Part shown: positions 37,049-51,615 of the stretch, piece after piece
How the letters are laid out: each line of letters begins with the position of its first letter
Position numbering within the stretch: position 1 is the stretch's first letter
Assembly (NCBI GenBank): GCA_000802095.1
Contig: JUEB01000020.1
Coordinates: 1-64,000, forward strand
DNA length: 64,000 nucleotides
Direction: 5' to 3'
Source: Peptococcaceae bacterium BICA1-7
Lineage (GTDB): Bacteria; Bacillota; Desulfotomaculia; Desulfotomaculales; Desulfocucumaceae
Program-made: the position numbers and the translations under genes
The notes under the pieces: generated by a model
The model's input: the letters and a program-made list of their open reading frames with translations, nothing else
Databases searched by the model: none
What the model was told of the DNA's origin: nothing

Positions 37049-37099
37049 AAATCCCTATCCAAAAGCCCTCTTTACTCGCGAAGAGGCTTTTGCCCCTGA

Positions 37100-37275
37100 A
37101 AGGCAAGGTTTCCTGGCTCCCGGTTCACAGCCTGGCTTCGCCTTCCCCTTATTACGGGTGGCATAGTGAAGGTGGCTCACCGGTTACAGTGGCGGAGACC
37201 GCTCAGGATTTCAACCTGATTCCCTATTATCCCTTTGGCCCGGGCACTGCCCGGAGGGCACCTTACAGGCGCGTA
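37100..37275 (-). promoter_or_regulatory. Cobalamin riboswitch
   Basis: Read on the minus strand it has the conserved order of the B12 aptamer: GGTGCCC near the 5' end (37262), AAAGGG...AGGGAATC, GGTTGAAATCCTGAGCGG, CGCCACTGTAA, and the B12 box GCCAGGAAACCTTGCC (37117-37102). It binds adenosylcobalamin-type ligands and turns off downstream expression. It points toward cobU, but 1.2 kb and an opposite-strand gene lie between, with two hairpins directly after the aptamer. Confidence 0.9.
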
Positions 37276-37317
37276 TTATCGCGACAACACTTTATAGCTA
37301 ATACTGCTAATCAATTC

Positions 37318-49624: not shown

Positions 49625-49649
49625 TATAAAAAAACCGCCTTGCAGGCGG
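49625..49649 (-). terminator. Minus-strand intrinsic terminator upstream of the CBS gene
   Basis: CCGCCT/AGGCGG with a 3-base loop, followed on the minus strand by TTTTTTTATAAGG. There is no minus-strand gene between here and pckA, which has its own terminator, so it may stop read-through or end an antisense RNA. Confidence 0.65.
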
Positions 49650-49684
49650 CGGAATCCAGAATCCAGGAGTCAGAATCCAGAATA
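49648..49684 (-). repeat. 7-nt repeat unit (AGAATCC type)
   Basis: GGCGGAATCCAGAATCCAGG then AGTCAGAATCCAGAAT: five heptads of the dispersed family, minus-strand form, next to a terminator. The GGTCGG end is replaced here by GGCGG of the terminator stem. Confidence 0.6.
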
Positions 49685-49716
49685 TTTTAAAGCATTCATC
49701 TCAGGATATCTTCCTG

Positions 49717-49744
49717 TTGGGAGTACAGTACATTGAATTATTGT
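49717..49744 (+). promoter_or_regulatory. Probable promoter of the structured RNA
   Basis: TTGGGA at 49717-49722, a 16-base spacer and TATTGT at 49739-49744, placing initiation near 49751, just before the first base of the terminal stem at 49753. Confidence 0.45.
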
Positions 49745-49750
49745 ATCGAA

Positions 49751-49960
49751 AAGGAGAAGGCATCAATCGAGCGATATACCGGAGTCAGTTACTGCCTTTT
49801 AACGAAGGAGCCGTCAAGGATGACGATTTGGCGTACACACGCCGCCAAAAGCCTGAGAGGAGCGGGACGCGACTTTCGAGGGCGGTCGTCAGCCTCGGCG
49901 AGGAGTTTAAAGGCAGTACTGACGCAGGTCTAAATCGCGAGTGCGATGTCTTCTCCGATA
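49751..49960 (+). ncRNA. Candidate structured non-coding RNA of about 205 nt, possibly raiA-like
   Basis: The ends pair: GGAGAAGGCATC (49753-49764) with GATGTCTTCTCC (49945-49956), 12 bp with one G-U. A short GCGAT/ATCGC helix follows. Then comes a second long stem, 49785-49803 with 49905-49922 (ACTGCC...GGCAGT, about 17 bp with one bulge and one mismatch). The enclosed 100 nt hold CGTCA-AGGA-TGACG (49812-49825), GGCGT-ACAC-ACGCC (49830-49843) and purine-rich joins (GAAGGAG, GAGAGGAG, GAGGAG). A promoter-like pair precedes it. It has no SD or reading frame typical of these genomes. Size and layout recall the raiA RNA motif of Firmicutes; that name is a guess. Confidence 0.6.
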
Positions 49961-50040
49961 CTCCCCAAAGCTTCTACGGTATTTGTAGTCAACAAATGAT
50001 CTACTTTAGCGCTTTAAAGCGTCATATAGTTTCCTGATCA

Positions 50041-50068
50041 ATTAAAAATGCCCCAGGCAGCCTGGGGC
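50041..50068 (-). terminator. Intrinsic terminator after pckA
   Basis: GCCCCAGG/CCTGGGGC with a 3-base loop, followed on the minus strand by ATTTTTAATT. Confidence 0.85.
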
Positions 50069-50082
50069 GCCCGGGGCACACT

Positions 50083-51615
50083 TTATATTGTTTCGACTAT
50101 TTCCTTCTTAAGGTCTTTGTATTTACCCAGCCACTGCACTCTTTCCTGCCTCAGGCTGTTCACCAGACGTCTGTACTCATCTCCGTCATAATAGCTCTCC
50201 GGCCTGTACCGCCCAAGGTCGATGCCCTGTATCTCCTCAGGCACCAGATACCCCCAGTCCGGGTCGGCCTTCCATTTTATTGTTCCCCGGGCTATCTCCC
50301 TTAATATATCGGTGGAGAGCCCTATGGTAATCTTGGTTCCGGGGGACTGGACCCCTGCCCCCACAGATCCAGTGTTCAGCAGGTAGCACTCCATGTCCGG
50401 ATTATTACGCAGTATTTCCAGGAGTCTGTTGCCCTCCTCGGCCTCTGGGCCAACTATAAACGGGTTGGTCCCCACCTCTCTTTTTGACTGCCCGGCCTTG
50501 GTGGGATCACCGGCAGAGGTTTCAATTGATTCACCCAGCATAAAAAAGGCGGCGCCCTGCTCGGGAGAAAGCCTGGCCACCGGGGGCACAATATCGTTCC
50601 GCCGGGTTATAAATATTATTTTATCCGCTTTTTTAAGGTCAATGCTGCTGTCGGTGTTTTTGACTTCCTTCCTCAGTATGACACCCCTGCCGTTGGAGGT
50701 TAGATCAGCATTGTCAAACCTTACCTCCCCGCCTTCGTCAATCATAACATTTTCAAAGATGGCTGTTGGCGATATGGCCGCCTGGTATAGGACGGCCTGA
50801 CTCTCATCCAGTCCCTCGGTTTTTATGTAAAAGCCATTTTCAGTGCCATAGCAGTATCCATCGGGGCTCATCATCACCACGTCGTCCTGCCTGATAAAAA
50901 CTGTTTCGGGGCTGATTAATCCATGATCATGCATGGTCAGTGTTGTTTTCCCGGTACCGCTGAGCCCGAAAAGTATAAAGCCGGTGTCCTTTAGCGCCCC
51001 GGACCCGTCTTTTGTCCTCAGCACCTTGCTGCCGGCGTGAAAGCCAAGCCCACCGACCCTTTTAAAACCGTACATGGCCATCCTGAGAAAAGATTTTTTG
51101 GCTTCACCAAAATAATCGGTGCCCAGTATAAATGTAATCCTTTCCTCCGGGTGGCAAAAAATAACCTTCTCCGGCCACTCCGGGACGTAAATGCTTATGA
51201 GATCCGGCTCCCCTGAGTATTCCCCGGGATCGAAAAGCATCTGCTGCCACTTTAGCGGGATACGGGCATAGGGCGAGGTTATGTAAAGCCTGCAGTTCAG
51301 CTTAAAGTTGGGATTCAGCCCCATCTGCCGGTCCATCCTGATCAGCTCCACACCCTTTAAATACTCATACACACGGTTGGCTATGGAAAGCGCCTTTTCG
51401 GCCGGCATGCCCTGCTGGTCAACCCCCAGAGGCACCCCGTCCTCAACAATGTACGTAAACTTGGCGCTTCTGTTTCTCACCCTGGAAATATACCCCGGGC
51501 TGCCGTAAACAGTTGTTTTCTCCTCATGCCTGGAAAGACTCCTCAGTTCTTCATATGAGGGATTAATTATGACCCTGCCGGACGATAAAGGCTCCGGCCT
51601 ACGCAGCATCCCCAT
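50083..51615 (-). CDS. pckA: Phosphoenolpyruvate carboxykinase (ATP)
   Basis: A 510-residue enzyme interconverting oxaloacetate plus ATP and PEP plus CO2. The kinase P-loop is FGLSGTGKTTLTMHDHGLIS (kinase-1a GLSGTGKTTL), and the kinase-2 region is FIRQDDVVMMSPDG. ENVMIDEGGEVRFDN and FITRRNDIVPPVA are the metal- and ATP-binding parts. Length and motifs match the ATP-dependent, not the GTP-dependent, family. It is a single gene with its own terminator. In anaerobes it can run either toward gluconeogenesis or toward C4 acids. Confidence 0.95.
   Translation of the reverse strand: MGMLRRPEPLSSGRVIINPSYEELRSLSRHEEKTTVYGSPGYISRVRNRSAKFTYIVEDGVPLGVDQQGMPAEKALSIANRVYEYLKGVELIRMDRQMGLNPNFKLNCRLYITSPYARIPLKWQQMLFDPGEYSGEPDLISIYVPEWPEKVIFCHPEERITFILGTDYFGEAKKSFLRMAMYGFKRVGGLGFHAGSKVLRTKDGSGALKDTGFILFGLSGTGKTTLTMHDHGLISPETVFIRQDDVVMMSPDGYCYGTENGFYIKTEGLDESQAVLYQAAISPTAIFENVMIDEGGEVRFDNADLTSNGRGVILRKEVKNTDSSIDLKKADKIIFITRRNDIVPPVARLSPEQGAAFFMLGESIETSAGDPTKAGQSKREVGTNPFIVGPEAEEGNRLLEILRNNPDMECYLLNTGSVGAGVQSPGTKITIGLSTDILREIARGTIKWKADPDWGYLVPEEIQGIDLGRYRPESYYDGDEYRRLVNSLRQERVQWLGKYKDLKKEIVETI

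Follow-up and report, generated by a model that had tools for sequence, protein, structure and literature searches.

A probable degenerate, relocated copy of a mobile TwoAYGGAY RNA, a predicted CsrA ligand carried by terminator-sited elements, in the CBS-pckA gap of Peptococcaceae bacterium BICA1-7

The window analyzed here, a stretch of 64,000 nucleotides of Peptococcaceae bacterium BICA1-7 (contig JUEB01000020.1, positions 1 to 64,000), carries between a CBS gene and pckA a segment that the original prediction had read from its letters as a long-stemmed, multi-branched RNA of the plus strand. RNA folding recovered a structured stretch at that place and on that strand (about 49717-49966), with a minimum free energy of -109.8 kcal/mol and a z-score of -7.84, none of 200 shuffled sequences being as stable, together with each of the parts that had been described, namely the 12-bp stem, the long inner stems, the purine-rich joins or internal loops and the two apical hairpins. 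The minus strand of the same stretch yielded a z-score of -5.1, and both strands thus fold well. The repeated unit in which the fold lies reaches beyond the boundaries originally drawn, to about 49693-50042 or 49626-50042. The features of the locus are as follows.

49626..50042, plus strand: whole dispersed repeat, subfamily A (five-copy alignment; 49626-49690 in four copies)
49634..49652, minus strand: intrinsic-terminator-like hairpin and T-run at the left end (terminator scan; kept in 4/5 copies)
49653..49688, plus strand: imperfect 7-base direct repeats of the AGAATCC type in the left extension (read in the sequence; similar tracts at other copies)
49719..49965, plus strand: predicted RNA fold (RNA folding, z = -7.84)
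49719-49725 / 49959-49965, plus strand: predicted outer stem, 7 bp (RNA folding)
49753-49764 / 49945-49956, plus strand: predicted 12-bp stem (RNA folding)
49779..49927, plus strand: conserved structured core (covariance-model match: R1, 155.2 bits; R2, 119.1 bits)
49827..49849, plus strand: hairpin 1, loop UACACA, GGA lost (sequence, sister copies, loop table)
49851..49884, plus strand: hairpin 2, loop GGGAC, GGA kept (sequence, loop tables)
49998..50042, plus strand: right-end segment common to dispersed elements without the core (DNA search of relatives, flanks)
50048..50079, minus strand: pckA terminator, adjoined by the repeat (terminator scan)
50083-51615: pckA open reading frame (ORF list)

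The promoter proposed for this RNA (TTGGGA-16-TATTGT) proved weak, agreeing with the consensus at 8/12 positions, and a plus-strand scan at 9/12 or better found none in the region. A coding gene was rejected as an explanation of the stretch: the 106-aa frame that runs across it, already doubted in the original prediction, is not a conserved gene and is interrupted in a sister copy (G000:C28; L002/L010) by the deletion of 1 nt.

Alignment revealed the stretch to be one of five copies in this genome, 97-98% identical over ~350-420 bp and set in unrelated flanks. The unit spanning about 49693-50042 is common to all five and that spanning about 49626-50042 to four of them, while three more loci match the repeat over only 40 bp of its tip. 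The right-end sequence ACTTTAGCGCTTTAAAGCGTCATATAGTTTCCTG (49998-50042) also occurs on elements that have no RNA core (L030, L032, L036, L037, L039 and L041). At the window site, the terminator scan placed two different terminators on either side of the repeat. The CBS-pckA gap measures about 196 bp in G007, where it holds no element, and about 280 bp in G001, where it holds a right-end remnant only; the element was thus either gained at the window site or lost elsewhere.

When the aligned loci were compared, they resolved into a single family that shares one architecture and divides into several subfamilies, A being that of the window and B, C and D occurring elsewhere; the same core is carried between quite different ends in subfamilies A, C, D and E. 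With the covariance model R1, the core was detected 24 times in this genome, and a congener yielded at least 51 copies. With the refined model R2, the family was found in 33/113 genomes of the order, some of them with weak single matches only, and in 37/398 genomes of a phylum sample. A sequence pattern for subfamily C matched mainly on contigs of Peptococcaceae bacterium BRH_c4a. The 3′ part of the core is interrupted at L026, L056, L071, L098 and L107 by another small repeat (CCCCTCATGGGGACATTCCTGCCC...GTGTCCCC), the insertion point, after CAGTTC, being identical in several copies.

Searched against Rfam at E ≤ 10, the window copy matched no family, TwoAYGGAY (RF01731) included. Two relatives in the same genome nevertheless scored 65.7 bits (L103) and 50.4 bits (L094) against RF01731, the gathering threshold of which is 43 bits, and other better-preserved relatives reached up to 67.4 bits, the whole model being covered in these matches. 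TwoAYGGAY is a known, if little-studied, bacterial RNA family (clan CL00106) listed in PMC2864571. Since homology runs through a single covariance model, with covariation and the Rfam matches of relatives behind it, the core at 49779..49927 is homologous to this family as judged from sequence, and we infer that the stretch descends from it as a copy that has degenerated and been relocated. The family resemblance lies in the fold as a whole, with its pair of neighboring GGA-loop hairpins; the divergence of the window subfamily, in contrast, is too great for the Rfam model to match, and one loop is lost. The pair of AYGGAY-type apical loops that defines the family is absent from the window copy, which displays UACACA in hairpin 1 and GGGAC in hairpin 2, and the copy was accordingly filed as a degenerate derivative rather than an intact member. 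GGA is kept in both hairpin loops by two of the four sister copies of the window repeat. The Rfam TwoAYGGAY model misses diverged subfamilies. The original prediction had guessed at a raiA-like RNA (RF03072), with which the stretch shares its size (about 200 nt) and a complex, multi-branched fold. Such an identity now appears extremely improbable, as the Rfam raiA model found no match in the window copy even at E ≤ 10, and the stretch belongs to a dispersed repeat present in many copies, relatives of which match RF01731.

That this is a selected structured RNA, as originally proposed, is strongly supported by covarying homologues in many genomes and by a mismatch pattern favoring the plus strand. 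Covariation had been named as a check on the proposal, and among 36 diverse members 40 of the 45 base pairs have changes in both partners that preserve pairing; on a wider set 44/45 pairs covary, a result equaled by none of 500 shuffles, and 91.7% of cells are paired as compared to at most 43.4% in slid controls. Both alignments include subfamily A and Rfam-positive members, and both were fitted to the covariance model and therefore lean towards structure, although the margins are large. The plus strand is favored as the RNA strand because G-T mismatches outnumber A-C mismatches on it, 43 to 21 in a fold forbidding G-U and 65 to 20 on the alignment.

Across the family, the two hairpin loops keep the form (A)NGGA, except that the window copy has only a single GGA loop. 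GGA was found in loop 1 of 33/36 members and in loop 2 of 35/36, the stems beneath varying freely. CsrA sites follow the consensus RUACARGGAUGU, with an ANGGAN hexaloop (PMC7652899), and the family loops match this consensus closely at the sequence level. CsrA binding by TwoAYGGAY was proposed earlier (PMC4333381) and is not a new idea; the association with csrA is new. In the phylum sample, csrA was present in all but one of the 37 family-bearing genomes (36/37) versus 249/361 others (p = 3.7e-5), the exception being G289. Within the order, csrA was found in 19/21 genomes with at least three copies of the family and in 38/80 without it (p = 2.6e-4); when all family-bearing genomes of the order were considered the count was 24/33 (p = 0.012), with G067 among the exceptions. 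The association could reflect confounding by motility or taxonomy. The gene fliW was found in 62 genomes of the order, the same number as csrA, and the genome studied here encodes FliW and, next to it, a canonical CsrA. At 8-9 bp, the stems of hairpin 1 are longer than those of most SELEX-derived CsrA hairpins (PMC7652899), which counts against the CsrA reading. As to the two exceptions, G289 carries at least 7 family copies with csrA not detected, and G067 carries 10 with neither csrA nor fliW detected, the GGA loops in the latter being nonetheless conserved.

The predicted mode of action has a parallel in CsrB, RsmX, RsmY and RsmZ of the Gammaproteobacteria, which present GGA motifs in hairpin loops and are thought to sequester CsrA (PMC7652899). 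The folds are unrelated, however, and the family described here has two such loops rather than many, is dispersed in Bacillota, and binds CsrA by prediction. Outside the Gammaproteobacteria, CsrA-binding sRNAs have been a matter of prediction only (PMC4333381), and joint control of CsrA by FliW and sRNAs is, according to a review, unknown for any species (PMC7652899).

Many members of the family are bounded by inverted repeats of 15 bp (CAGACTGNNGACAAA), the host terminator hairpin being present in duplicate, once on each side. Ends of this kind were found in subfamily D and in members of G017, G013, G067, G080 and G100. In 34 elements, the two flanks share a median of 18.5 bp versus 9 bp in re-paired controls, and at least 16 bp are common to both flanks in 62% of elements but in none of the controls. 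The ends of the small elements are matched by those of IS1182-family transposase genes in G016, where the end of such a gene, next to a terminator, reads TTTGTCAACACTCTG and a left end reads CAACCTGTAGACAAA. For IS1272, a member of the IS1182 family, stem-loop-dependent transposition has been proposed, one of the suggested pathways leading to duplication of the stem-loop (PMC5678879). The small elements resemble this family in their short inverted ends, stem-loop targeting and the proposed stem-loop duplication (PMC5678879); they differ from it in carrying an RNA core and no transposase gene, and IS1182-type inverted ends were not seen in the window copy, the ends of subfamily A being different. 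The IS1182-like genes of G013 and G017 were rejected as parents because of non-matching ends, a match being confined to the G016 genes. Targeting of the kind used by group IIC introns was considered because copies follow terminators, and was set aside in the absence of any Rfam intron match and given the better fit of the ends to IS1182. A sense 3′-UTR element was likewise rejected, no sense-orientation bias of the elements relative to neighboring genes having been found. At three loci (L136, L146 and L135) most of the core is deleted while the two inverted ends and the duplicated terminator remain, and L173 (G017:C6) is an IS1182-like transposase gene lying inside a CRISPR array. No match to the G017 element was obtained in plasmid and phage collections.

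On balance, we consider it probable that the segment in the CBS-pckA gap represents a mobile TwoAYGGAY RNA, probably CsrA-binding and carried by terminator-sited elements, in the form of a degenerate copy that has been relocated. According to this model, the family would be carried by small non-autonomous mobile elements sited at intrinsic terminators, and the plus-strand RNA presumably transcribed from intact members would be a rod topped by two adjacent A(N)GGA-loop hairpins, both loops of which are probably clamped by one CsrA dimer, so that the RNA is proposed to act as a decoy titrating CsrA. For members with 15-bp inverted ends, an IS1182-family transposase is the probable agent of movement in trans; it would act at stem-loops and duplicate the target terminator hairpin. 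The window copy, having lost one GGA loop, may be inactive. Several observations count against this reading: the window copy matches no Rfam family and its hairpin 1 lacks GGA, the plus-strand scan found no good promoter, sense-orientation bias is lacking, the ends of subfamily A differ, and G067 has its 10 copies without csrA or fliW.

A rival explanation is that the element is selfish DNA alone, its fold being kept as a single-stranded hairpin or cruciform for transposition or target choice with no role for an RNA. In its favor, the family is dispersed and mobile, both of its strands fold well, and it inserts at palindromic terminators without orientation bias. A transposase recognizes ends, however, whereas here one core is found between quite different ends (A, C, D and E); the conserved A(N)GGA loops and the mismatch asymmetry towards the plus strand also speak against such an element, which would not predict the co-occurrence with csrA either, and we hold this explanation to be unlikely. 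Conservation of the loops in the 10-copy genome G067, in which csrA was not detected, would rather suit a functional RNA whose GGA loops serve some role other than CsrA binding, such as a contact between loops or recognition by a different RNA-binding protein, and the purine-rich internal loops, which are conserved as well, fit this reading. Given the close match of the loops to the CsrA consensus and the presence of csrA in all but one of the family-bearing genomes of the phylum sample, a non-CsrA role appears decidedly unlikely.

Should the TwoAYGGAY elements indeed act on CsrA, it is conceivable, albeit doubtful at this stage, that dozens of transposon-borne CsrA decoys are at work and that RNA titration and FliW act jointly on CsrA in one Gram-positive-type cell. 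The csrA co-occurrence and the loop conservation provide genome-scale support for the CsrA prediction of PMC4333381, and many-copy carriage by terminator-aimed mobile elements suggests a way in which such decoys might spread and vary in dosage. The TwoAYGGAY literature searched makes no mention of multi-copy, transposon-like carriage, and the titles and abstracts listed for work on terminator-targeting or IS1182 MITEs do not describe the element; MITE-like, terminator-aimed carriage of TwoAYGGAY is thus an addition relative to the literature searched. Intact copies that can be put to the test are now named (for example L003 and the G017 element). Elsewhere in the window, a cobalamin riboswitch at 37085-37280 on the minus strand gave a strong Rfam match (110.7 bits).
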